62,795 nucleotides of DNA, from positions 1 to 62,795 of IMG/VR virus record IMGVR_UViG_3300027754_000091; one strand, given 5' to 3'. Source of the DNA: a virus. Both the position numbers and the translations under genes were made by a program. Below, piece by piece: positions 15,595-58,200 of this stretch. The notes under the pieces are model-generated. The model was not told where the DNA came from. It ran no database searches and saw only the letters and a list, made by a program, of their open reading frames with translations. Position 1 is the stretch's first letter; each line of letters opens with the position of its first letter.

Positions 15595-17508
15595 ATGAAT
15601 AATTGGACAGCACTACATTGTCATTCTCACTATAGTCTTTTAGATGGTTTAACAAAGCCAGAATCTATGGCAAAAAGAGCAAAAAGTCTTGGGCACAAGT
15701 CTATAGCTCTTACTGATCATGGAACTATTTCTGGCTCTATTTCTTTTAATAAGGCATGTGTCGCAGAAGAAATAAAACCAATAATAGGGTGTGAGTTTTA
15801 CATATGTGGTCAAAGTGCTTTGATTCATGACAAAACTAATTCTAAAAATTCTCACCTATGTGTCCTTGCTAAAAATATTTCTGGCTGGTCTGAGCTTATA
15901 AAACTTTCGTCTTTATCAAACAATAAAGATTATTTTTATTATAAGCCTAGACTAAGCTTAGAAGATTTTGCACTACATTCAAAAAACCTAATAGCGTTCT
16001 CTGGACACCCAGGAACACAATTGGCCAGATGTATTTTTCCAGATGAGGCGTACAAGTGTGCTAGTCCAGAAGAAGCAAGAGCTTTAATTAAAGACGATTG
16101 GTTTGAAGAATGTAAGAAGTTATGTTCTAAACACCAAGATATTTTTGGCAAAGAAAACTTTTTTATTGAGATACAGCTTTTTGATAAAGACAACTTACAT
16201 TGTTCTGTAGTCCTTGCTGAATGTCTTAGAAAACTATCCAAGGAAACTGGTATTAAGGCAATAGCTACTCCTGATGCTCATTACGCTAAACAAGAGGATG
16301 CTTCTGATCAAAGAATAATCTTATGTGCATCTATGGAAACAACTCTTTCTAAAGTAAGATCGTCTTTAGACAAACATGAAGACTTTGGATTGTCTAGCTT
16401 TTTTAAATCAAACAGGTATTACATTCCATCTACTGAAGAAATTTTAGCTCTTCATGAACCAGAAGAGTTAAAAAATTGTTTGTTGATTGAAGAGATGTGC
16501 GAAAATTATTCTTTAACAAAAAAATCTGTTTTGCCAAGTTTTGAGTGTCCAGAAAGCAAAAATGAACATGATTACTTAAGAGAACTTTGTAGAAATGGGT
16601 GGAAAGAAAAGTTTTCAGATTTAGAAAAAGATTCATCAAAGTTTGAAAATTATGTTGGAAGAATTAAAAATGAGCTTTCGGTTATAGGCGATGCTGGTCT
16701 TGAAGGTTACTTTTTAATTGTTCAAGACTATTGCAATTGGGCTAGAAAACAAGGTTGGTTAACAGGAAGAGGGCGTGGGTCAGGTGCTGGTTGTATGATT
16801 TCTTATTTGCTTGGAATAACTCAAGTAGATCCAATCGAGCACAATTTAGTTTTTGAGCGTTTTTACAATGCTGGAAGAAATGTTCCAGGTCATGTAAGTC
16901 TTCCTGATATAGATTGTGACTTTCCAATTACTAAAAGAGACAAGGTTATTGATTACATTAAAGCAAAGTATAACGAAGAAAATGTTTCGCAGATGATAAC
17001 ATATAGCAGAATGCAGGGTAGGGGTGCTTTAAAAGATGTTTTAAGGGCACATGGATTTTCTTTTGATGAAAGCAATGCCATTACAAAAAACATACCTGAT
17101 GAATCTGAAATATCTGAACAACTTCAAGAAATGAAGGAAGATGGTGGAGAATCATCAATTATTGGTTGGGCATTAGAAAATATCCCTTCAAAGCTTAAAG
17201 ATTATTGCGAGATAGACGAACATGGTAATATAACAGGAAAGTTGTCAAAAGAGTTTTCACAAGCGATTAGACTTGAAGGAACTAAGCGTAGCCAAGGAAA
17301 ACATGCTGCTGGAATTGTTATAAGCCATACGCCTTTAAAAGATATATGCCCTATGATCTATGATAAGAAAAATAAGCAAATGATTGCTGGTCTTGAAATG
17401 TCAGATCTAGAATCAATTGGTTTGGTTAAGTTTGATATTTTGGGGGTTGCAGTTTTAGATAAAATAATGGGATGCATAAATTTATTGAAAGGAAAAGAAA
17501 ATGAATGA
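15595..17508 (+). CDS. dnaE: DNA polymerase III alpha, N-terminal half (PHP and palm)
   Basis: 637 residues holding the first part of a C-family polymerase. The PHP domain opens with TALHCHSHYSLLDG, then ALTDHGTISG, PIIGCEFYI and ATPDAHYAKQED, so the metal-binding His/Asp/Glu residues look intact. The palm begins at GWLTGRGRGSGAGCMISYLL, and the first two catalytic Asp residues lie in LPDIDCDFPI. The third is in LVKFDILGVAVLDKI. The protein stops just after this, at the loop that joins palm to fingers, ending KGKENE. The rest of the enzyme is a separate gene at 18412. No intein N-half sequence is attached. The SD is weak (AGGAACAG) and the gene follows the Nudix gene by 17 nt. Confidence 0.92.
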   Translation: MNNWTALHCHSHYSLLDGLTKPESMAKRAKSLGHKSIALTDHGTISGSISFNKACVAEEIKPIIGCEFYICGQSALIHDKTNSKNSHLCVLAKNISGWSELIKLSSLSNNKDYFYYKPRLSLEDFALHSKNLIAFSGHPGTQLARCIFPDEAYKCASPEEARALIKDDWFEECKKLCSKHQDIFGKENFFIEIQLFDKDNLHCSVVLAECLRKLSKETGIKAIATPDAHYAKQEDASDQRIILCASMETTLSKVRSSLDKHEDFGLSSFFKSNRYYIPSTEEILALHEPEELKNCLLIEEMCENYSLTKKSVLPSFECPESKNEHDYLRELCRNGWKEKFSDLEKDSSKFENYVGRIKNELSVIGDAGLEGYFLIVQDYCNWARKQGWLTGRGRGSGAGCMISYLLGITQVDPIEHNLVFERFYNAGRNVPGHVSLPDIDCDFPITKRDKVIDYIKAKYNEENVSQMITYSRMQGRGALKDVLRAHGFSFDESNAITKNIPDESEISEQLQEMKEDGGESSIIGWALENIPSKLKDYCEIDEHGNITGKLSKEFSQAIRLEGTKRSQGKHAAGIVISHTPLKDICPMIYDKKNKQMIAGLEMSDLESIGLVKFDILGVAVLDKIMGCINLLKGKENE

Positions 17509-17770
17509 AAAAGAAGAGGTTGAATTAATAGCAAAACTAGTATCTCAACAAATGGGATTAGTTCAAGCTCTTTCAGAATGTCAAAATTCAAAAAATCAAC
17601 TTTCTTTGCAGTTTATAAAAATACTTAAAGCCATTGTGTTAAAAAATAATGGTGACTTTGTTATAGAAAAAGAATTTTTTGATTCTGCTGATGACAATGA
17701 CTTTAAATTAGATATCACAACTGATGATGAAGAATCAATCGTTTTACAATTTTTAGAGAATGAGGAATAA
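17501..17770 (+). CDS. Small acidic protein encoded between polymerase halves
   Basis: 89 residues from ATG 17501, which overlaps the polymerase N-half stop by 8 nt and follows AAAGGA. The first half is helical (VELIAKLVSQQMGLVQALSE...) and may form a coiled coil. The second half is very acidic (EFFDSADDNDFKLDITTDDEE). I recognise no family. Its constant position between the N-half and the exonuclease, with translational overlap, makes it a candidate accessory or bridging subunit of the split polymerase; that is inference only. Confidence 0.55.
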   Translation: MNEKEEVELIAKLVSQQMGLVQALSECQNSKNQLSLQFIKILKAIVLKNNGDFVIEKEFFDSADDNDFKLDITTDDEESIVLQFLENEE

Positions 17771-18409
17771 ATGTATAGTAATACTATTATGGTTTTTGAT
17801 TTTGAAACAGGTTCTTTAGATATAAATAAGTGCGAAGTAATTCAAGTTGCAGCTATGGCAATAAATAGAAAGACTCTTGAACCAATTAAAGATGGTGTTT
17901 TTGAAACACTAATAAAACCAAGAGATTTCAACAATCTTCAAGATGAAGCTCTTGCAATAAATAAAAAAACAAGGGAAGAACTTAAGCTTGCACCAAGTAT
18001 TGATGCTGTTTGGAAAAAGCTTGCAGATTTTATTTCAATGTTCAACAACGGCAAAGGAAATATTTCTGCACCAATTCCAGCAGGGAAAAACATAAGGCAT
18101 TTTGATATGCCTATTTTTCAAAGGGTTTGCTCAGAACTTGGTTATGTAGATAAGAATGGAAATCAGACTTTGTTGAATAGAAGGAACATGTATGACCTTG
18201 ATGAAATAATGATGTTGTGGTTTGACAATACTACAGTGGTTCCAAATTATAAAATGGACACATTAAGAGATTTTTTTGGGTTATCCAAGGCTAATGCTCA
18301 TGATGCACTAACTGATGTTCTACAGACTTCTGATATTATTTTGCATTTTTTAAAGTTGCATAGAAGCATTTTTCCAAAAATTAAATTTAAAGATGCATTC
18401 AGAAAGTAA
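17771..18409 (+). CDS. dnaQ: DnaQ-like 3'-5' exonuclease (DEDDh)
   Basis: 212 residues. The four acidic residues and His of the DEDDh family are readable: MVFDFETGSL (Exo I, D-x-E), AGKNIRHFDMPIF (Exo II, Asp) and ANAHDALTDVLQTS (Exo III, H-D-A-x-x-D). It should act as proofreading nuclease of the polymerase III core, like bacterial epsilon. The gene starts immediately after the small acidic gene and ends 2 nt before the second polymerase half, so all four are probably made together. There is no recognisable clamp-binding extension at its C-terminus. Confidence 0.9.
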   Translation: MYSNTIMVFDFETGSLDINKCEVIQVAAMAINRKTLEPIKDGVFETLIKPRDFNNLQDEALAINKKTREELKLAPSIDAVWKKLADFISMFNNGKGNISAPIPAGKNIRHFDMPIFQRVCSELGYVDKNGNQTLLNRRNMYDLDEIMMLWFDNTTVVPNYKMDTLRDFFGLSKANAHDALTDVLQTSDIILHFLKLHRSIFPKIKFKDAFRK

Positions 18410-18411
18410 TT

Positions 18412-20034
18412 ATGAAATATTATAAGTTTGAATGTGGCTGTTCTTGGCCAATAATTGAACAATCTAAAATAGAAGGTGCTTTACCATTAATGGAAGTTGA
18501 TCCATTAAAATTGCCGTATTGCCAGTCAACTTGGGATTTATTTGCAAGAGGCGATACAAAGGGTGTGTTTCAGCTTGAATCAGACCTTGGTAAACAATGG
18601 AGCAAGCGATTAAGGCCAAAGAACGCAGAACACTTATCTGCGATTGGTGCATTGATAAGGCCAGGAACACTTCGTGCATTAGATGAAAACGGCATTAGTA
18701 TGACCACCCATTATTGCAAAAGAGCTAATTTTGAAGAACCTGTTGAGTCATACCACCCTGTTGTTGATGAAATTTTAAAATCAACCTATGGATCATTGGT
18801 GTTTCAAGAACAGGCTATGGAGTTATCTAAGTCTGTTGCTGGCTTTACCCTGCAAGAAGCTGATAAGCTAAGAAAAGCTATGGGCAAAAAACTTGCTAGT
18901 GAGATGGCAAAATGTAAAAAAATATTTATTGAAGGTGCTAAAAAAGTTGAAATTGTAAGCGAAAAACAGGCCGAAGAAATATTTGGTTGGATTGAACAAA
19001 GTCAAAGGTATTCGTTTAACAAAAGTCACAGTTGTTGTTATGGTTTAACTGGATATGATACTGCTTATTTGAAAAGTCATTTTCCAGTCCAATTTTATTG
19101 CAGTTGGTTATATTACGCAAAGGATAAGCTTGATTCTCAACTTGAGATAATGGATCTTGTTGAAGATGCAAGAAAGTTTAACATAGATGTTTTAGCACCA
19201 GATGCTTTTAAATTGAACAAAAATTTTGCAACTGATGGCTTAAATATATGGTTTGGTATTACCGATATTAAAGGGGTTGGTGAATCACAATTCAATAAGC
19301 TTAAAGCATCTATGGAAAAGAACAAAGATAAGCTAAATAATTGGGAAAACTTTGTAGTATTTTGTTCGGATGAAATACCAAGTTCTACTATAATAAAACT
19401 AATATCTGTTGGTGGATTCAAAAGATATAATACATGTAGACAAAAACTTTTAGCAGAATATAATTCTTGGGTACAGTTAACAGATAAAGAAAGAGAATGG
19501 ATTAAAATTAATTTTACAGAATCTACTATAGCTGAATTAATATCTTCAGCAGCAAAACCAAAAAAGGAAAATGGTGGTTGCTCTAATCAGAACAGGGTTT
19601 TGTTTTTAAAGGACTTGGCCAATTTGCTCATTAATCCACCATCCCCGCACATTGACCTTCCTCAATGGCTAATTTGGTCAGAAAAGGATGCTTTGGGCAT
19701 TTCTTTGACTTGTAATGCAATTGATTCATGCGATACAGCACAAGCTAATACCACATGTAAAGAATTTTTAAATGGAAAAACTGGCTTTATGATTTTTGGA
19801 GTGGAAATACGAAGATGTAAAGAAGTTATAACAAAAGCTGGTAAATCTCCAGGATCTAAAATGGCATTTATGTCTATATCAGATTCAACTGGAAAAATAG
19901 ATGATGTAATATGTTTTCCAGATTCGTACAAAGATAGTTGGTCTTTGTTAAAAGAGGGCAACACTGTTTTAATTCATGGTGAAAAAAGCAGAGGTAGCGA
20001 TTCTCTTTTAGTTAAAAAAGTTTTTCAAATTTAG
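18412..20034 (+). CDS. dnaE: DNA polymerase III alpha, C-terminal half (fingers, beta-binding, OB)
   Basis: 540 residues. After a short Cys-bearing leader (YYKFECGCSWPII), the sequence enters family order at LPLMEVDPLKLPYCQSTWDL and GVFQLESD, the fingers of DnaE. Further matches are SAIGALIRPGTL, LVFQEQAMELSKSVAGF, DKLRKAMGKK and YSFNKSHSCCYGLTGYDTAY. IWFGITDIKGVGESQF near residue 280 is the helix-hairpin-helix region, and MIFGVEIRRCKEVITKAG to the end is an OB-fold with DSTGKIDDVICFP. Together with the gene at 15595 it makes one full-length alpha subunit. The two halves must associate without covalent joining, because no intein is present on either. Confidence 0.92.
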   Translation: MKYYKFECGCSWPIIEQSKIEGALPLMEVDPLKLPYCQSTWDLFARGDTKGVFQLESDLGKQWSKRLRPKNAEHLSAIGALIRPGTLRALDENGISMTTHYCKRANFEEPVESYHPVVDEILKSTYGSLVFQEQAMELSKSVAGFTLQEADKLRKAMGKKLASEMAKCKKIFIEGAKKVEIVSEKQAEEIFGWIEQSQRYSFNKSHSCCYGLTGYDTAYLKSHFPVQFYCSWLYYAKDKLDSQLEIMDLVEDARKFNIDVLAPDAFKLNKNFATDGLNIWFGITDIKGVGESQFNKLKASMEKNKDKLNNWENFVVFCSDEIPSSTIIKLISVGGFKRYNTCRQKLLAEYNSWVQLTDKEREWIKINFTESTIAELISSAAKPKKENGGCSNQNRVLFLKDLANLLINPPSPHIDLPQWLIWSEKDALGISLTCNAIDSCDTAQANTTCKEFLNGKTGFMIFGVEIRRCKEVITKAGKSPGSKMAFMSISDSTGKIDDVICFPDSYKDSWSLLKEGNTVLIHGEKSRGSDSLLVKKVFQI

Positions 20035-43222: not shown

Positions 43223-46200
43223 TTATGCCCTCATTTGATCGTTATTGTTGCCCCTAATGGCTGAATCAATCATTCCTGCAACATTAGTTGTTATACCAGA
43301 TAGCGATTGCTGTATTGCTGTCAATACACTTGGAGTATTAAAATTTACATTTAATGATAATGGTGCAATAGCCAAAGTTATTGTTTTTGGTATAAGGCTT
43401 AGTGCAGATGTTAGATTGTTGACTGCTCTTTCAAAAGCAAGACTGCTAGAGTACATGCTTGCTGATGAGCTATTCATCATTGCTGCAACCTTATCAATTA
43501 GCGATATTGATGATGTTATTGTACCAGCAGTTTGTGCAAGATTTGATCCTAATAATGATGCACCAGAAGCCACAGAAGCTGCTACATCTTGTATACTTGC
43601 GAATCCAGCTTTAAGCGTTGTAAGATCAAGGTTAGCACTAGAACTGCCACCGCCACTACCTCCAGTACCATCTTGATAATAGCCAACTTTTCCACCCTTG
43701 GCATAATTATTAACCTTATCTAAAAATGCAGTTCCAACTCTATCTACTGCTGGCTTACTTACAACAAACTCACCCGGTGTTAACATAGCTGGTTGAGTGT
43801 CAGTGCTTGAACCACCGTTGGCAAAACCTCTAAAATAACTAGGCCCAGAACCAAAGACTGAATTTCCTTGTACTCTATTTCTTTGCACATTTGCTAATTG
43901 ATAATAAGGGTTAGGGGTTGGTCGGGGTGGATTAATTTGTTGATACGGTTGATTGTTCTGCGACATTCTTGCATTTTTAATAGTGTCTAAAGCTTTAGTT
44001 GCTGCCACATCTGTATTATTTACTGATAAACTTCCTAGCCCATCTTTTTGCAACTTAGATATTGCCTGTTGAGCTATACTTACATTGCTTCCTGGGGCAT
44101 CTGCAAGGGTTCCAGAAGCTAATGCTTTGTTTGCACTAACGCCTTGGAATGATTGATTTCCAGCTTTGCTAAAGCCAAGCTCATTTATGTAGTCTTTAAG
44201 ACTAACCTTATCATAGTTTTGACCATTGTCGCCATGATTTGGTGGACCACCAATTAATCCAGATATATAACGACTTCCAACAGCCGATGTTCTATATCCA
44301 GTTATTGGTGCTCTAGAAATTTCTTTGTTGTTTAAGATGTCATTAAAAGCTGCATCTTCCTCTGCGAATTTTGCAGCACCAGCCATTTTTGCTGAACCAT
44401 ATGGCGAATCAGATAATGCATTTAATCCACCAACATAATCGGGGATTGGGCTTCTACTGCTAAAAGAAGTGTAACCAGATCCAGATCCACCAAATTCTTT
44501 CGAATGCTTTGGTCCATATTCAGTAGCGTAAGTGTAGCTTCTATATTTTTTATTTAAAAATCCTGATCGATCTGCCCTATAGTTAGCCAAATTACCAAGA
44601 GTGTTTGCATTGACTCTAGGGTTAAAGACTCTAGAAGCTAAATAACCCTCTGTTCCTATGTCAAAATCTGTCCTTTGTCTTTCATATCTGGTAGGTCTAT
44701 ATCGACCACCACTAGCAGGGTCATAATACCCAGTTCCTTGATCAGCCCTTTGATCCATTGGATTGTCATACATTGGTCCAGAGCTTATATATCCCCTGCC
44801 TGGAGATTGTCTAGAATATGCAGCATAAAATGGGTTTATAGCTGTAAGATTACCACCACGGTATAAGTACTTTACCGCCCCACCACTGTTAAGATTTTGC
44901 AAGAGAGGGAGATTAGCGGAAGTTGCCCTAGCATTAACTACATACTCACCAGGAGATAGTATTGCTGGTACAGTATCACTACCCTTTGCCTTAAAGAAGG
45001 ATGGGTCAGGGTTTGGAGCACTGCTTGGAACAATACCGCCAGAGGCGAGAGCAAGAGGTTGTTTTTGACCATTCCAAGAATAGCCTATGTCCTTATTTTT
45101 TGAAAAATATTCAAGTATGTCTTTAGATGAAAGCTCAGATAGTTTTGGTAAGTTTAATTCTTTCCTTATTTTATTGCCGTCAAAGTTATAAAAATCTGTT
45201 TCGTCTAAGACATCGCCTTCAAAGCCTTTATTTATATAGCTTAAAATGTCTTGATCTTTATTATCAAATAGTTTGTTTCCATAAAAAGCTTGAACAATTT
45301 CTTTATTTCTGCCAGAATTTGCTAAAGACTTATTTATGTTTTTAAAATCTATTCTGTTAGTATTTTTTATTCTTTGAGGAATTATACCTTCGTAATTAGA
45401 TATTGGTCTTCCTTCAGCATTTGAAAAACCACTGTTGCTATCTTGATAAAATAATTCCTTGTTTGCGACTATCATTAAATCAATATAAGACTTAAGATCT
45501 TCCACTGTTGTTCGTTCTTTATACACACCGCCAAATAAATCTGTTTCCATTTCTTCTTTTAATTTTTTTATGTATTCCTGATTTTCATTTTCATTTTTAT
45601 TTTTGTTAATATCTTGCGTTGTACTTGTATTACTAAGCTCTTTATACGATGGTGGTATTTCAAACTTTTTACCAATTAAATCATATTCATTTTTTAACTT
45701 TGAAACTTGATTGCTTTTAGTATTTATGTATTCTGGACTTCTATATTTTTGAACAAAACCATTTTCTACTTTAAGAGACTTAAGAATTTCTACAATTTTT
45801 TCTTGTTCTAACATTCCAAGTTTTTCATTTATGCGTGTTCTATTGTCGGCTTCATTTAAATTTATTTTTTCATTTTCTATTTCATATTGTTCTTTAAGAA
45901 TTCCAAAATCATATTCAGACAGTTCTTTTTCTGGAACTATGCCTAATCTTGATGCTATTTCAGCAATCCTGCTTTCATTCTTTCTGTCGTTTAAAATTTT
46001 ATCTTTCAAAGATGATACATTTGTATCTTTGTTAATAAATAATTTAGAAAACACATCTGCTTTATCAGAATCTAAAACGCTTTCGTTTTTTGTTTTGCCA
46101 TCAAGAAATGCTGTACTATAGTTAGCACTATATCTGTCTCTTACTGCTTGTAAAGACTTTTGATCTGCTGTGCCTTTTTGCAACTCAGATATTTCTGACA

Positions 46201-49200
46201 TAAAGGCTTCTATAGAACCTTTCTTATCTGATTCTAATTTTTCAGCCAAGACAGCATCTGGAACTGCTGAAAAAGGATATTGGTTTAAATACTTGTTGCT
46301 TTTTAAATTTTTAAAATCAGGATCAGAGTAAATTCCATAAGATTCAATTTCATCAGAAAAATTATTAAAATAAGTTTGTGGTTTATTTAAAGCAAAATTA
46401 ACATAATCTTTACTATCGTACTTGTCAAAAAAATCAGGGCTAAAGTTTCCTTGACCTCTTTTGTCATATCTTCCTTGTAGATTTTTTCTAAGATCTCTTA
46501 CTTTTTGCATTTCTGCTTTTTTGAAACTTGCAGCTTGTGCATTTTGATAAATTTTATAACTAGCAATTAACAAACCAGCAGTTGCTCCAATAGCTATACC
46601 CGGCAAACCAAATGCTGCACCAGCACCAGCACCAGCAGCAGTTGTTCCAACTACATTTGTAATATCTCCTGCTAATGTAGTGTCTGCCTTTCCATTAAGT
46701 CCATCTACTGCTTGTTTATCGAATAATTGTTGAACGCCAGGAAAAACGCCACCGTATTTTGCGATAACTTTTTCTTGTTTTCCAGCAGATGATTTATCAG
46801 AGCTAAAGGCATCTCCTAAATCTTGTAATGCGTTACTGGTATCTCCTAAAAATGTAATTCCAACACCAGCAGCAAGAAGTGGTGAAGCAGAACTAGCAGC
46901 CATAATTGCTGCCATCATAGGCAACGATTCGCCAATACCTGTTGCGGTTTCTCCAAGGCCACTTTTTATTTCTGCAATACTATAGTCATTCATATAGTTG
47001 CTTATTGGATCAACTAAAAACGGCAAACTCATTTCAGCAAGATTTGTAATACTTGCAAATTTATGAGCAGCACGACTTGGTTTTCCAGCAGAAACCTTTT
47101 TTATCTGAGATGCATTATTGAGCCATCTTTTTACTTGTTTAGCAACTTCTTCAACTTTGTCTAAATCTAAATAACCTCCCTCATCTTTAGCAAAAGCTTT
47201 AATTCTCTCGCTAAGAGTTGAACTTTCTTTAACTGTTTTTGTTCTAATAATAGATCTAATGTCATTAACACTTTTTAATTTACTAAGCTCTGGATTAATT
47301 TCTATGTATTTGTCAAAAGCGTTTAACGGATCACTAAATTTAGGATTTTCACCAATGGTTGAACCAATTATAGACTTTAATAATGGTGCATCCTTTTCAG
47401 CAGGTATTTTTGTAGGATTAATAGATCTTTTATACATATTTGCTATTTCATCATATATTGCATTATCAACTGTTTTATCGCCAGGTTTTTTTCCTTTAGA
47501 TAATTCTACAATATTGTCAAGCCTAGTTTTAAAATCAGCAAGTCCATCTTTTGTTGTACCTTGAGTTGATGCTGATACAGTTGGTACAACTTTTTGAGTA
47601 TTTAGTCTGTTTTTAATAAAATTATCTTGCTCCACTTTACTAAGATCGTCATATAATATTTGTTCGGATCTAGTAAGACTTGAAAGGATTTCCTTAATTT
47701 TTGCTGATGGATCAATAGTTTCTGGTGGTTTTTGCCTTATCCCTCTTTGAATTAAAAAATTGTTTCTTCCATCTGCATCCAAAGATGTATATTTTTCAAG
47801 CTGTTTTTTGTTTAGGGTCGCTGTTTCTATTTCTTCTGAAGGGGTAAGAGTGTTTTTTCCTTGAAGTGCCTCTTTCATTTCTCCTGGAATATTTGTTATA
47901 TCTATTCCTCCACCAATCATTTTATTAATTTTTTCAAAAAAACCAGCTTTCTTAGGGGCATCACCAACAATTTTTTTAGGGTCTTCAATAACACCAGTTT
48001 TCTTAGGATCTTCAACACCAACTTCGCCATCTTTCTTTTGCCCAAAAAGGCTATTATAACCCTTTTGAAGACCAATGGTTGTCAATCCACCCACTGTCGC
48101 TAGACCAAGACCAGCTAATACATATGTTAGAGTTTGTCCAGCATCCATATCCTTAGTGGGTTGTGGTGTATTTTTACCAATCGGTTTTTCTTCAGCGTTT
48201 ACATTTCCACCGAATAAAGATGATGCTATTCCCAATCCTATTCCTAAAGCACTAGCCTTTTTACCTCTAAGTTTTTGATAGGCAAGAGTACCAGCAACAC
48301 CAACACCAGCAGCAGCTAAAAGAGCAGTTCCTGTGTATGTTGTGGCTTGTCCAGCATCAATTTCCTTAGTGGGTTCTGGTGTACGACCAAGGTCTATATC
48401 TGCGTTTGCATTTCCAGCAGATAGTGATGCTGCAAGTCCTGCAAGTCCTCCAAGTCCTACCGTTTTTAAGAATGCTTTTCCAAGTCCTGGTTTTGACTTT
48501 GGTTTAGGTTCAAATTGGAATTTTTCTTGTGCAGTTCTAGCTATAGCTTCTTTAGTCCAAGGCTCATATAATTGAGAAATTTTTGCTTTTGGTTGTGGTC
48601 CAAACATATCTAATTCAGCAATTTTATTTTTTCCTATTTCTGGATCATTAGGATAAGTTCTCATTATAAATTCTTCAAGCAATGCTTGCTCGTAGCCCTT
48701 ATTGGCAAATTCTGGTTTACCAAAAATGCTATTTAATTCAATTGGTTTTTTACCACTAATAGCACTTGCAACATCTCGATGATATGAACTATTATAGGTT
48801 TCTGCCAAACCAAAATCTTTAGCATGATCAAGAACACTTAATGTTGAAGTTGATGGTGGTCTTTTTAAAGTATCTCCTGGTGATGGAGCTTTACCGTTAA
48901 TAAGCTTAGGATTTGCTGAGAAGCCTCTTTCTAAATCATTTGATTGCAGTTCAGCAAGCATGGTATCTACACCATAGCCTTGACCATACCTAGACATATC
49001 TATAGCACCAAAAAGTGAATTATGTATAGGAGATAATGGATTTTGAGCAGCAGATTGAACCCTATGACCAAATTCATGAAATCCTGTTTCAACTTCACCA
49101 GTTCTGCTATTTGATCTACGAGAATAAGTAGTTGCTAAATTTGGAAATTCATTAGCATCACCAAAAGTATTAATCTGTGTCTGTTGACTTATTACTTTAT

Positions 49201-52200
49201 CTTTAAATGCAGCAATAGCATTTGCTATTCTTTTATTGCTTGGTTGCTCAGACAATCTTTTTTCTAGTTTTATTATATCTTCACTATACTGATTGTTTTG
49301 AACCTCTTGATACCCAGTTTCAAAAGTAGTTAATATAGTTTCTTTTGGACCAGTGTCACCTTTAAGTGGTGGTCCTTGCATTGGCCCTCTTATTTTTCTA
49401 CGGTTTTGTACTTCCAACTCTTCTATGAGGTTGGCATCACCTAATCTATCTTGCAGATTAAGATATCTTTCAAATCGTTTTGCTTTTCTAGTTCCAAGGT
49501 ACTTTTCTGATTCTGCAAGGAAAAAATTTCTATTTTCATATGGATCATAGTTTTGTTTAGTTAAAAAAGCCTTTTGTGATACCATTGGATCAAAATCAAC
49601 ATTATTCTTATTATACTTATCCATAAAAGGGGTTGGATCTCCCGCTTTCAGAGTAGGTTCTTTAAACCTAAGAGTTCCAGTATTTTGCAATGCCTCTTTT
49701 AAAGCTGGATAACCCGGATTAAATGTATTATCTAAAAATTTCTGAATTTTTACTTGTTCTTGTTGAGCTTCGGAAAATCGATGAGTTGGTTTTTCATCCT
49801 TTTTAAGAGCACCCCAAAGATGATCTTCGTCACCATAAAGTGGCCTGTCTAATAAACTTGGCCTATCTTTCTGAATTATGCCTTTGTCAGTAGAAGTTTG
49901 TTGATTAGCAGAAAGCGATTTTTGTAATATGCTTGTTGTTTTAGGTTGATACTCAGATGCCCTTCTTTGAGCTTCATTAAGAAGATCCATTTCTCTTCCT
50001 TGACCAGCATATTCAAGAATACCAGAAACTGGAAGTGGTTTATCATCCTTAATTGCTAGAGCAATATTTCTATGAGCTTCACTTTGATAATTTTTTGCTT
50101 CTTTTGAAGAAGAAGAAAATTCAGTAAGCCTTTTTAATTTATCTGCTGGATCACTGCCCATCCCATAAACTGCTGATGCTTCATAACCAAAAGTTGTTTT
50201 ACCCTTATCTGTTAGATCAAGATATTTGTCTGTATTCAAAGATCCAAAAATTGAATTATTAAGAGGCGATTTTGATGATTGACTATTATTTGTTACTGCA
50301 TGAAAACGCTCATGTTTTGCAACGGCAATATTTTCTATTGGGTCTGGACCTGGGAAAGTTGCTGCCACATTATCTAATGGTGAATAACTACCACTGGCTC
50401 CTGTTCCTGTTTTATTTTCCTTAAAACCCCTATTGTACATTCTTGGGAATAATTCAATTTCACTTCCTAATCTAATGTTCTGTGGTTCATTTAAAAGATT
50501 TTTAATCTTTATTTTTTCTTCGTTGTTTGGAGATCCAACTATTTGTGAATCAGCAAGCCTAGATAATTCTTCAAGCCTTTTTTGATATTCAAGATATCTT
50601 TGAAATTGATTTGATTTTCTTTCCCCAAGATATTTTGCTGTCTTATCTTTAAAACTAAGTTCTGGTAAACTTGGATCTTCACGCTGAGGTTCAAGTAAGA
50701 ATTTAAGTTCTCCAGTATGCCTTAATGTTCTTTTTAATTTTTCAACACCAGGATTAAAACTGTTTCTAATAAAATCATCTGGTTCACCGCCCAAGTTCAA
50801 ATAACTAACCTTGCCCCCACTATTCATATAATCTAAAAGACCTTTATTCTTTTTGGCCTTGTCAGCACCAATAATAAATTCTCCAGACTGAACCATAGCT
50901 GGAGTTTTACGGTCAGCTTGACCCCCCTTAGAAAAACCCATCACTTTAATGTTTTTTACATCTTTTAAACCATAAACTCTTTCAAAATAACCCCCCCCAA
51001 TAGTAGTAATGTCTGGTGGACTTCCAGCCATTAACAAATCTTCAAAATATGGTTTTAAATTTGCTCTTCTTTCGTAATACGCTCTGCTGTTACCATCATT
51101 ATCAACAGGATCAATTGCTTGTGCTCCTTGCAACATTGCATTACGATTAGCCCTTAAATAATCTTCTGTAGCATCTAATATTTGTTGGTAAGGAACTTGC
51201 TTTATAGCTAATGGCATTGCATAAATTTGACCACCGATAGCCATTCTATTAATTTTATCTAGTTTTTGTGGATTAAGATTTTGTATATTTAAACCAGTAT
51301 CACTTATGTTTGTTATCATAGACCAAGGAGCAATGTTTTGTTTTGAAACCACTGCACTAATCGGCAAAGACCCATCACGATAAGGAATATTTGTAAGATT
51401 ATCATCGCCCTGCATTATTCTTAAAGAGTTGTTTAAAGCATTTCTTCTCCAAGAACCTCTAAGATTTCCAAACTTTGTTAACACTGCAATAGCAATATTT
51501 TGCTCCCTTTGCATTTTTGCAATTCTTTGTGCTTCTATCCGATTAACATTTAGTGGGGCAGCAAGAGCAGCAGCAGGATCAACAAAAGCACCGTCAGCTA
51601 AATATTTAACAGCACCGCCAGCATTCATTGCTTTTGTAGGCTTAACTGTTCCACCGCCATTTAAAGCTTGTAGCAAAGGAAGATTTTCAGATGTTGCTTT
51701 TGCGTTAACCACATATTCGCCATGATTTAACATGGTGGGTATTGTATCTGGACCTATTGGTTTGAATACAGTTGGATCTGCACCAACCATTGCAGAAGCA
51801 TGGGTTACCATACCGCCAGTGCTTTTCCCACCAGCCCTTGGAGCAAGTGGATTAACTGGAGCAACTAAGTTTCTTGGGGCATTTAAAAGATTTAACTGGA
51901 CATTTAAATTTTGTACAGTATCTGCTGCAATATTTGATTGTGCTTGAAGATCTCGAATTTGTTGAAGAAATGCACTTCCAATAAAACCGCCCAGTCTTTG
52001 TATATCATCTACAGCTTTTGAAAAAACTGATGAGGTAACATTTTGTTGAAGTAAATCTTTAACAAAACTTCCTAAGTTTATTTGATCTCCTTGAGCATTT
52101 GGATTGTTTTCAAAACTAAAACCATTTTTATCACTTCTTCTAATTAAACCTAATTTATCAGATAGTCCAACTTGAGTTTGAACTTCTTTAGATTGCATAG

Positions 52201-55200
52201 GGATAAATTGTTGTTCAACAGCATAATCTATGGCTTGTACAAGTCTTCCAGGCTTAAATTTACCACTTGCATCGCCATATGATTGAACTTTTGCAGCAAT
52301 AGCATTAATGTCTAAACCAGCAAGGTTTTTATTTTGAGCAAGTTGATTAAGTAAACGACCAACATTTAGAGAATCATCTTGATTTACAGAGTTAGCAGCA
52401 ATAACATTTGCTTGATAATTACCTTGTTCATCTTTAGTCTTTGCAAAATCTGTGGCTTTTGCTTCTAAGTTTTTTTGTTTTTCAACAGAGCTTAAAAATG
52501 TAGTAATATCTTTACTATTTGGTGCTACATATTTAGTATAACTTTCTTGTGTTACAAAATTAGCCATACCTTTAGCAGATGGGGCTATTGATTGTAAGTC
52601 TTTTATTTTTGCATCATTAGTTCTAATTGATTGTTCTTGTTGAGCTATTTGTGTTCTTGATAGCTCTGCGGATAACCTTGTAAAAAATTGTTCATTCTGC
52701 AATGTTAGTTGTGCAAAAAATTGGCCTTGTAAAGTTTGTTGATCTTGTATTATTAATAATTGTGCTTGTTCTCTTACTGCCATAACAGCAAAAAGTTGTG
52801 CGTTTAACTGAAGTAATTGTGGTCCATATTTATCTTGGGCTTTTGTTTCTGGTTTAGATACAAATCCACTTGCTTGTAAAAATTCAGATTTTAATTTTTT
52901 ACCTTCTTCTCCAGAAAAATCTAAGTATTCAAAAATTGCTTTTCTTTGCTCAACATTAAATCTTAAAAGATTTCCACCAAGTTCTTTAGCAATACTAGTC
53001 AATTGACTACCAGCTTGAAGTCTTTGCAATTGTTCTGGCGATGATGTTAAAAGTTTTTCACCCTTATTTTCTGTTTCAGATTGTTTTCTTGCATTATCCT
53101 GTTCTTCATTTGCTATTTCTTGTCTTATCTTTCCAACCCTTTGTTCAATTGCAGACACTTCTTCAGTTGAATCAGCAAGATTTCTCATTGCCTGATTAAG
53201 AAGTGAGGCTTCTACCTTCAATCTTCCTAACTCATTTGTCGCATCAGTATCTTGGCCCCTTCCATTGGCTCCCGCTGTAAATCTAGCATTTTTTCTTTTT
53301 GCTTCTGCTGCTTCTGTATTAATTCTATTCTGATTGATTCTATCTTGTATTTGTTGAGGATCTAATTGATTACCATTATTAAGACCAGTAAGCCTAGCCT
53401 GTTGTTCTGCAAATGCTTTTGTCTGATCAGATATGTTGGTCATATCAAGACCTATCTGACCTTCTTTTATTTCACCAAATCTTGCCCCTAATGGATTCGC
53501 CTTTTTTTGTTTATTTATTTCTTTTTCAATATCGATATTTTTTGAAAAAGTTCTTGTTTGTTGTTGAATTTTTGAAAGTTTATCAAATTCTTGTACAGTT
53601 TTTATTGTTTCTTGAGCCAGCTTGTTTATTCCAGCCACATATGTATCTGAGGCTTTTTCTAAATCCTCTGCAATTTTTTGATAAGCTTTTAAGAATGGTT
53701 CTGAAACACCAGACATTATTTTTTTTGCAAATTCACCGTAATCTCCACCAGACTCATTAAGCATTTTGTTGAAGTCTTCACCCATTTTTCCAACAATTGA
53801 ATTAACATATGCTATTGTTTGCGATGGGTCAAATCCTCTATTTTTTAATTCTTGTGTTAAAACACCCCTTAAAACAGTTTGTGGGTCTTTACCACCTTTA
53901 ATATCATTTGGGTTTATATTCGCAAGTATATCTGGAAGTAATGAAGATATATTTGCAACTATGTTTCCAGATTTTTGAAAATTAGCCCCACTTGAACCAA
54001 GCCCGCTTGAAACATCTTTTAAGTTTTCTGCAAATGCACTTGGGTTTAAAAACGATGATTGAACATCAGTAGATATTTTTCTCTTTTGACCTATAGAAAA
54101 ATTTGAAGATAATGCATCCGTTATTGTTTGAAATGCTGGACTTAAATTATTTAATGTTGAAGCAGCATTAGATGAAGCATTTGCCAAAAGTGAAAATGCT
54201 ATATTAAGTTGTTCTGTACTTTTAATTGCTAAAGTTTGATTTTTAATAGAAATTTGTTGTTTTTCAAAATCTTTTGCAAATGTTTCAAATTGTTTTTTTA
54301 ATTTTTCTATTGGTTGATCTAAACCAATTGACAATTTAGCAAGTTGTGATGAATTGGCCGAGTCTTCAAAAAATTTATTTAAATCAAATTTTTGATCATC
54401 TTGTGCTTTAAAAGTATTAGTTTTTACATCAAGTGTTATAGTTGGTTTTATTTCTTCTTCAATTTGCTTTGATAAAAGAGAATTTATTCCAGATGCTTGT
54501 CCTGCATATTGTGTTCTTCTTTCTGCTTTACCAAAAGTGGCTTGTTGTTCAGCCCTACTAGTAAATGAAAAAAATGAAGAACTTGATTTAACCTTTTCGT
54601 CTATTGAAGCATCAATTTTATCTTGTAAATCTGTAACTTCTTTTAAATTTGTAGCCGATATTTTATTGAATGATGTAGCTGCAACAGCAAAAGCATTCTT
54701 TAATTGAGTTCCAGCTTGTTCCAATTTTATATCTGCAATTTGTTTTGCAGCATCTCTAAGACCAGTTGAAAGACCAGTCAACCCGCCAATAACAAATCCA
54801 GCAGCTATTCCCAACGGACCTAAAAAGCTACCAACAGCAGCACCAGCAGCAGCACCAGTAAGAGCACCAGAAGTTGCAGCCCCTGCCTTATATGAACCTT
54901 CATTTTTATTAGCAACAGCCTCTTTTGCTTTAGCATCACTTAAATCAAATGAGCCTCCAATCATGCCAAGGCCAGTACTAGCAGCAAAAATATTGTTCTG
55001 TAAATTATCTCTGGAAAAAGTGTTTTTTAGAAAATCTGATCCTTTTCTAAATAATCCTTTTTTTCCTGTGTCTGAATAACCTTCTTTTTGTAATCTTTTA
55101 GCTAAAACTGGATCATAAAATTCGCCCTTGTCTGAAACTTCAAACTTCCTTCTTCCAGCAACAGTTTCTCTAGCCATTTGTTGAGCTTGCTTATTTGCAA

Positions 55201-58200
55201 ACTTTTCATCGAATTCTAAACCTTTTGCTTCAGAAAAAGATTTTATTTGATTAAAATAACCAGCCTTCAATCTTTGAGCAGTATTTTCTCTAATTTCTTT
55301 ACGAGTGCCCCCAGTTGCCTCTTCTCCATAAAGTGCTTTATAGTTAGCAAGTTCTTTTCTTATTTCTTTTTTATAACCATCACCATAAGTTGATGTTATT
55401 ACCTTTCCATCTTTTGTAATATTTCCATCTGGATTATCTTTGTATTTGTTCTTTAATGCATTAATTTCTGATCCTGTTTTTTCCAGATCTTTTTGTGCCT
55501 GATTAACGAATGCTTTATTTCTAGCAGCACTTTGATTTACTTGTTTTAAATTATCGACACTTTGACCAACATTTTTTTGTGCTTCTGCTGTTGTTGAAGC
55601 AGCAGCATCAATACTTGCTTGTTTATTGGCTGCTAAGTTTTCATAGTTTGTTTTAACTCTTGTTGCAGATTGTATTTTTTTATCAATTGCTTTTTCTTCT
55701 CTACTTCCAACAGCAACGCCTCTTTTTTGAGTTTCAAGACCTCTAATTTCTTGCTCTTTAGCTTTAGCGTTTGATATGTGTCTAGATTGAATATCTCTTT
55801 CTTCTTGTTCTTTTGCTTTAACATCTTTTAATATGCCCTTTCTTTCTTCCATTGTTTTTAAAATGTCTGCTCTTCTAGCATTTATGTTTTCCTCATTTTT
55901 TTGACCTTGAGCAACCTTATTTGCTTGCTGTTTATAAAGAGGTTCAAGTGCTTTTACTTGTTTGCTTGTATTAGTAATATCTTCCGCAACAGCTATTGCT
56001 TCTTGTCTATTCTGTCTTTTTTCTGCTTTATTTGTTGGTATTCTAAGTTGTCTTTCAACTTGTTTTGCATTTACTATTTCTTCTCTTGTTAAAGTTCCAT
56101 AACCACCACTAGCAAATTTCTTTCTACCAGTCGTATTCATATGGTCTAAATTAGAAACGCCAATCTGCTTTGTTTCATCTGGATTATAGATGTATTCACC
56201 TGGCATAACTAATGATGGAATAACCCCACCACTAGCTCTTCCAAGTCGAGATAAGTTTGAAGCACCTATGCTGTTAACTGAAGATTTTTTAATTACATAA
56301 GAACCAATCGGCAAGTCTAATGGAACACTGTCAGTGTTGCCAACGCCTGGAACTAAACCGCCAAGAGCTTTTGGTTTTCTTAAAGCATCATTAGCTTTTT
56401 TATTTAATTTTGATTCTTGATTTTCAAGATTAGCAAGTTTTGGATCGCCTTGTGCATAATTATTAGCTTTTACAATTTTTTCATATTCGCCTTCTTTAAA
56501 CTTTGCAGTATTGTAAACAACTCCAATATCGCCAAGATTTATAGTGTCGGACTCTATGGTATTTGAAAATGATTTTTTGTTTCCAATTCGCATTTTATAT
56601 CTGGCTAACTTGTCTACTAATTCAGCATCTGAAACTGCTTCTCCTACATTTTTTACTTCATATGGAAAATTGCCTTTTCCAATTAGATCAACAGGATAAC
56701 CAGGTTTTGTTCTTGGAGCACCCAATTGTTGGGCTGCAAATGATTCAAAAGAATTTCCTTGAGCAGCAATACCTTTTAAACTTGCCGATTTTTTGTCTTC
56801 TAATGGAAAACTAATTATGTTGTAATTAATTTTATCGGTTGGATTAATTAGATTACCAGACCTATAATCACTATCCTTGGGCGTTTTTGATGAATCAAAT
56901 AGTTTTAAAAGTAATTCTTTTGATATAAATTGTGTGGCTTCAATAGAACCACCACTACCAAAACGACTTCTTGGAATAACCAACTCACCAGGTTCTAACA
57001 ATGCAGGAACCTTATCGCCCCTACCAACTCCTGGTACAACTCCACCCTTCGCCATTTTAATTATCCCACCAGAAGCCCTTCTTGTTCCAGTTGGCAAAAA
57101 TGGAGAAAATGTACTTGGTTGATTTGCTGGTGCAGGAGCAAAAGCCGTACTACCAAACCCCTTTGCAAAACCAGTCAAGCTTTGAACCGTCTTTACTGCT
57201 GCAATTGCAGTTATAACTGGCAAAACTCCTTTTAAAGAATCGGCAAGTGCAATACCAGCAGAAGCAGCACCGAGAAGTAAATCTATTAGTGATTTAAAAG
57301 AAGATGTGTTAGTAAGATTTCTAATAAAGTCTGCAAATTCTTCTTTAACCTTTTGTATTTTTACGCCAAAAGCCTCTTGTGCTTGTGCAGCATTTAGAGC
57401 AAGAGAAGCACCACCTATTTGGGCGACACCTAAAGCTTTCTGTGCAACACCAAATTCTTGAATAAGTGGTATAACCTTGGAGATCTGCCTATATCCACCA
57501 AGTTCTTCGATAATGGCACTAAACCTTGGATCAGTAGATCTAAGCTCATTAAGAGCACCAGAAAGCCTTTTAACAGCCTCGTATGGCCCAACAAACTGGT
57601 TTGCAAGACCTAGATCACCAGCAGCTTTAGCTTCATCTGCTGTATACCTTAGTTGTACGCCAATATCCTTAAGTGCTTCAACAGTTTCATTACGCTGTAC
57701 CCTAGTAAATATAGTTCTAAGTCCAGTTCCAATACTTTCTGCACTTTCTCTAGTTGTTTGCCTAATCGATGTGAATAATGCTAAAAATTCATTTAAGTCA
57801 CCACCAGCAGCTTTAAAAGCACCACCAGCCTTACGAACACCTTCAATTAAGTCTTGAGCTTCAACAGCAAATTCAGCAGCAACAGCGTTAATTGAACCAA
57901 GGGCGTTACCCAAGTCTTTTGCACTTATGCCAAACTGATTCATAACCGCAATAGCACCTTCTGTGGTATCTTTGAGGTTATCAAAGCTTGGGGCTAATGC
58001 AGCTTGAGCCAATGCTTCAAGTGCAACCTTAGTGTCTGCTAAACTTAAGTTAGCTTGTTTTAATGTCACTGCCGTTGTAAGTAGGTCTTTGCTAGAAACA
58101 CCATAATTTTTTGATAGCCTAGTTACTTCATTACCAACAGCACCAACTTGTCCAACACTGTCTGTAGAAACCTGAGTTAATCTAATCATTTCACGATCAA

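Follow-up and report, generated by a model that had tools for sequence, protein, structure and literature searches.

Positions 15595-20034 of the virus record IMGVR_UViG_3300027754_000091 (IMG/VR; the window analysed is the entire 62.8-kb record) carry a C-family DNA polymerase (DnaE, the DNA polymerase III alpha subunit, Pol III alpha) spread over two genes in a run of four abutting, co-directional open reading frames (ORFs) (Table 1). A preliminary description, made from the sequence without database searches, had placed a divided Pol III alpha here with two complete genes in the gap, and both points hold, the Pfam domains being divided between the two halves. The C-family domain set of PHP, palm/NTPase, fingers, helix-hairpin-helix (HhH) and OB is present in order across the two proteins; the OB match of the C-half is under the Pfam gathering score, yet it is backed by profile and model.

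Table 1. Features of the divided polymerase locus, in coordinates of the window.
Feature	Position	Strand	Match or remark
DnaE N-half (alpha-N), 637 aa: PHP, palm, thumb region	15595..17508	+	Pfam PHP 3e-39, DNA_pol3_alpha 2e-75
Codons of catalytic Asp 438 and 440 (PDIDCD)	16906..16914	+	100% conserved
Codon of third catalytic Asp 614 (KFDILG)	17434..17436	+	100% conserved
89-aa ORF, function not assigned	17501..17770	+	overlaps N-half end by 8 nt
DnaQ/epsilon-like DEDDh 3'-5' exonuclease, 212 aa	17771..18409	+	Pfam RNase_T 1.7e-16; PHROG 192 DNA polymerase exonuclease subunit
DnaE C-half (alpha-C), 540 aa: fingers, HhH, OB fold	18412..20034	+	Pfam DNA_pol3_finger 4e-39, HHH_6, OB
Three-Cys motif of the C-half N-terminal extension: C8 (18433-18435), C10 (18439-18441), C37 (18520-18522)	18433..18522	+	

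Profile searches against PDB located the break between residues ~634 and ~637 of Taq alpha (~575-584 in E. coli), the two halves covering Taq alpha residues 6-634 and 637-959. Similarly, one half matched positions 41-616 and the other positions 632-1073 of PHROG 405 (phage DNA polymerase, 1190 positions). A helix comes after the third catalytic Asp, and the break sits directly behind this helix, in the linker between palm and fingers, as had been proposed. The two termini had been described less exactly: D614 does lie near the end of the N-half, but the protein continues 23 residues past it, through the next helix, and the C-half does begin before the GVFQLES motif, but 50 residues ahead of it and with an extra N-terminus of ~30 residues. 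Modelled singly with AlphaFold2, the N-half and the C-half reached a predicted local distance difference test score (pLDDT) of 90 and 88, respectively. The best PDB match of the N-half was Taq Pol III alpha and that of the C-half full-length DnaE structures, both halves finding the same ones. Neither half alone holds a complete active site, the Asp triad being in alpha-N and the fingers, HhH and OB in alpha-C.

Conservation of the halves and recurrence of the break

D438, D440, K612 and D614 of the N-half are invariant among 91 sequences and the nine PHP metal-ligand positions are conserved, while the TKG, RPG, RK..KK and FN.SH motifs of the C-half are invariant or nearly so. The exonuclease encoded between them keeps D10, E12, D112, H177 and D182 at ~100% (99 homologues). 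Compared with ~98% identical relatives, both halves have a ratio of nonsynonymous to synonymous substitution rates (dN/dS) of 0.019-0.027 at a dS of ~0.32; compared with ~67% relatives the ratio is 0.13-0.19, with dS near saturation. Pairwise distances of the N- and C-halves correlate with r=0.96, which indicates a common history and not contact, because the exonuclease gives 0.95. These data bear on whether the halves might not form a polymerase at all but serve as a PHP nuclease plus a nucleotidyl transferase or DNA-binding factor, the host replicase copying the phage. Conservation of the PHP ligand positions suggests that alpha-N could act as a nuclease. However, the palm Asp triad is invariant together with the C-half motifs, a pattern of joint catalysis and of nucleotide and template binding, the exonuclease is always interposed and both halves share one history, so we regard separate functions as improbable.

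The preliminary description had proposed a search for other phages with the same split. A profile-based survey found it in 103 non-identical loci (distinct from one another within a stretch of 150 residues, though many are closely related) at 36-98% identity, mostly from lake and sea metagenomes, and it recurs in three cultured phages discussed below. Viral contigs supplied relatives at 98%, 66-68%, 57-58%, 48-51% and 40-46% identity, and contigs binned to metagenome-assembled genomes (MAGs) supplied relatives down to 36%. N-half, exonuclease and C-half stand in this order in 101 of the 103 loci within the fetched stretch, with 834-4501 nt between the halves; the two exceptions are L030 and L034, whose N-half is on the same contig as well, ~6.8 kb upstream. 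Among the relatives retrieved, none above ~36% identity was fused, and the fused DnaEs reached 31% at most, apart from MAG contigs, where brief, partial alignments went up to 36%. Among the best-ranked matches, none to either half above 36% identity came from a cultured phage, and tblastn found no relatives of the exonuclease in cultured phages. Phylogenetic analysis grouped 28 split polymerases in a single clade with full support in the Shimodaira-Hasegawa-like approximate likelihood ratio test (SH-aLRT 100), referred to below as the aquatic clade. The break is ancient, conserved and under purifying selection. As the contigs come from metagenomes, it could stem from misassembly or sequencing error, or the gene could be a pseudogene broken recently, but the break recurs in independent assemblies from many samples as well as in cultured phages, dN/dS is ~0.02 and every catalytic residue is retained. 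Conservation and dN/dS together rule this explanation out, leaving it a negligible probability.

Two further observations concern individual contigs of the survey. L117 and L118 carry a split DnaE at 36-38% identity on contigs binned to a Lokiarchaeota MAG, through either a binning error or an archaeal virus. The 206-kb record IMGVR_UViG_3300024358_000009 (L178) has two Pol III alpha matches ~146 kb apart; it may combine two co-assembled viruses or exceed a single genome length.

A structure search against viral proteins traced half-length DnaEs in cultured phages. The split is therefore not singular: gp85/gp86 of Mycobacterium phage Fowlmouth, gp59/gp58 of Corynebacterium phage P1201 and gp20/gp18 of Rossellomorea phage phiT1 are broken in the same palm-fingers linker. 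As in the window, no intein was seen in these pairs. They differ from it in that their genes overlap or have a 49-aa ORF between them, and in lacking the interposed exonuclease and the three-Cys extension. In Cruella, the sister of P1201, DnaE is fused. A single origin of all four split lineages was rejected by the approximately unbiased (AU) test (p=3e-23), while a single origin of phiT1 and the aquatic clade gave p=0.535. Judged from these tree comparisons, the same-linker break arose independently, P1201 and Fowlmouth not sharing the origin of the aquatic clade; phiT1 alone could share it. Other phage DnaEs are broken at other sites, in Anakin between PHP and palm, in Jayan and 8014-B2 near the catalytic motif, and in phage G with an intein and a homing endonuclease. 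In addition, Bacillus phage vB_BpsS-140 (L233, 1031-4638) has an unannotated DnaE in two overlapping ORFs (PHP part 363 aa, rest 852 aa), which is either a split or a frameshift.

Genes between the halves and splicing elements

The exonuclease is the sole constant gene of the spacer and usually overlaps or touches the C-half. The 89-aa ORF has no Pfam or PHROG match; it is kept in the nearest freshwater clade, with dN/dS of 0.08-0.15 compared with ~98% relatives, and other lineages have other genes in its place, such as uracil-DNA glycosylase (L021, L035), a small ORF (~60 or ~70 aa) or a longer cargo. The ~6.8-kb cargo of L034, located between N-half and exonuclease, encodes an aldehyde dehydrogenase, a DDAH-like protein, a class III aminotransferase, a UDP-glucose dehydrogenase and a saccharopine dehydrogenase. 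Five intact genes of amino-acid and sugar metabolism lie inside the polymerase operon of L034 and L030, and the spacer resembles an insertion hotspot. L192 and L201 have a 2.6-3.6-kb insertion between exonuclease and C-half with a DUF1559 prepilin-like gene and a ThyX-like gene, and in L192 also a tRNA gene. DUF1559 is typical of Planctomycetes, and the insertion hints at a planctomycete host.

Could the halves be reunited covalently, through a cryptic split intein, a trans-splicing intron, ribosomal bypass or a frameshift? No intein model matched the N-half or the C-half of the window, in agreement with the preliminary description, and Rfam gave no intron in the window at the gathering threshold and no match to any family in 17300-18700 even at E<=1. 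Moreover, the N-half, 89-aa ORF, exonuclease and C-half follow each other with an 8-nt overlap, 0 nt and a 2-nt gap, so that no room is left for an intron or other splicing sequence. Bypass is untenable, as lineages differ in their spacer, which in L034 and L030 extends to 6.8 kb and contains the five intact metabolic genes. What speaks for covalent reunion is that both split inteins and homing endonucleases are found within this gene family. The N-half of L195, L211 and L224 is interrupted between GPGRG and SAAG by a split intein, with an endonuclease-like ORF in between (L195 2044-5120; TIGR01445, 1.5e-8 for L195), and a lone C-half on a 10.8-kb Phycisphaerales MAG contig, which has no N-half (L135 4293-6584), contains a mini-intein between GFNR and SHA. 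However, these inteins serve as positive controls, being readily recognised and located elsewhere in the gene. The polymerase of L195, L211 and L224 is in three pieces, of which the intein could join the first two, and the palm-fingers break is still without an intein. We consider covalent reunion very improbable.

Two observations on related genes may be added. Gp329 of phage G seems to have an intein at the same GPGRG-SAAG site. In L037 (3347-5127), L076 and L114 the N-half is broken again beside the catalytic PDID motif by a LAGLIDADG-type ORF; for L037 this second break showed no Rfam intron at E<=1 and no clear intein.

A probable two-subunit replicase and the three-Cys extension of its C-half

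The genes upstream of the N-half encode a DnaB helicase, a Toprim primase, a dNMP kinase, a PD-(D/E)XK nuclease and a NUDIX protein, and an SSB gene follows 8 nt after the C-half. A search of 15 contigs of 63-231 kb for PolA, PolB and a bacterial beta clamp found none of them, and no Pol III alpha other than the split DnaE. Elsewhere in the window, a single ORF of 5093 aa on the minus strand (43223-58504) takes up a quarter of the contig and has large neighbours of 1612 and 659 aa.

We propose that, in this clade of uncultured phages, the locus encodes a replicative C-family DNA polymerase that is obligately composed of two subunits joined non-covalently, a reading to which we assign a probability of about 0.85 from sequence comparison and structural models. 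The preliminary description had held that the halves must reassemble non-covalently; "must" is too strong, but non-covalent reassembly is the best reading because no splicing signal was detected, the break lies in a linker, the catalytic residues are kept and no other polymerase was recognised. Several points weigh against it. The case is built on sequence and single-chain models; the 15 contigs may be incomplete genomes, so that a second polymerase may be encoded elsewhere; inteins or introns of a kind not yet described would escape detection; and the role given below to the Cys motif relies on a co-occurrence that tracks phylogeny.

In the proposed mechanism, alpha-N (PHP, palm, thumb) and alpha-C (fingers, HhH, OB) would fold separately and dock non-covalently over the palm-fingers interface, which is internal in an ordinary DnaE. 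The interposed DEDDh exonuclease would be the dedicated proofreader, probably positioned on the PHP domain as is E. coli epsilon. Copying of the phage genome would fall to this assembly together with the phage DnaB, Toprim primase and SSB, and with the host clamp should any clamp take part. A refinement of this two-subunit reading is that the 89-aa protein and/or the exonuclease are obligatory structural bridges, so that the core would have three or four subunits. All 101 loci with the full stretch do contain the exonuclease, and the 89-aa ORF translationally overlaps the N-half in the nearest clade. Yet the small gene is swapped for uracil-DNA glycosylase or for ORFs of ~70 and ~60 aa in other lineages, and phiT1, P1201 and Fowlmouth share the break with no exonuclease between the halves. 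Because unrelated genes replace it, the 89-aa protein is not a universal bridge, and we judge an obligatory bridge unlikely, although less so than the rival explanations discussed above.

The fused phage DnaEs inspected show no counterpart of the N-terminal extension of the C-half at their junction. A C-x-C pair and a third Cys, four residues before a conserved Trp, are all present in 91 of 106 C-halves and all missing in 13, while two have the third Cys only; this co-occurrence is significant (Fisher p=7e-15) when calculated with no phylogenetic correction. AlphaFold2 placed the motif in a beta-hairpin knuckle (pLDDT ~90). No Cys or His of the N-half or the exonuclease co-varies with it as a fourth ligand; only E528 and D264 covary, probably by descent. 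From the co-occurrence, we infer that the knuckle is a putative small metal-binding element at the new terminus, added with or after the break. Plausibly it caps this terminus or helps the docking of alpha-C to alpha-N.

Relation to known split polymerases

Split Pol III alpha as such is already known, both from the literature (PMC7824862) and from GenBank, where the pairs of P1201, Fowlmouth and phiT1 are annotated. Group 2.2 jumbo phages encode Pol III alpha as two separate proteins, which are predicted to reconstitute an enzyme without splicing; this minimal version is devoid of PHP and other domains, its genes are distant and a PolB is co-resident (PMC7824862, 2021). The window differs from this minimal type in having a PHP-to-OB enzyme in one operon with a DnaQ exonuclease between the halves, and no PolB was found on the 15 contigs. 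In OM43 phages MEP401/402, PolA is in two ORFs around a small ORF, an intron not being excluded by the authors (PMC10580990); that polymerase belongs to the A family, whereas the one in the window belongs to the C family. Fractured genes with split inteins and a homing endonuclease (Dassa 2009, as presented in PMC6892783) and the split PolB with a split intein of phage MIJ3 (PMC6892783) are likewise replication genes in two ORFs with ORFs between, but they are rejoined by split inteins; L195, L211 and L224 belong with these, the intein lying at a different site of the polymerase gene.

The split-intein DnaE of cyanobacteria is broken in the FNKSHS region of its C-terminal part. It too is encoded by two genes, but its products are trans-spliced, while the window breaks elsewhere and has no intein half. 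In the open-access literature we found nothing on this clade, its break, the interposed exonuclease, the Cys knuckle or the convergence, which is weak evidence of novelty. New here are the three-Cys motif in the extension of the C-half and the convergence on the same linker.

Replicative polymerases are usually viewed as one chain in which palm and fingers move together. If the two-subunit reading of this ancient and widespread enzyme is true, the fingers/OB part can act as a docked subunit, a state reached convergently, at the same linker, in at least three lineages. More tentatively, the palm-fingers linker of DnaE could be a natural, repeatedly used subunit boundary, here obligate, stabilised by a newly evolved metal-binding knuckle and organised around the exonuclease, so that polymerase assembly could be a regulated step; we hold this as possible rather than probable. 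The locus would also offer a design from nature for building split polymerases, and would let the closure of C-family enzymes on the nucleotide be tested directly. It would further caution annotators that a DnaE gene of half length in a virome may encode a whole enzyme and not a fragment.

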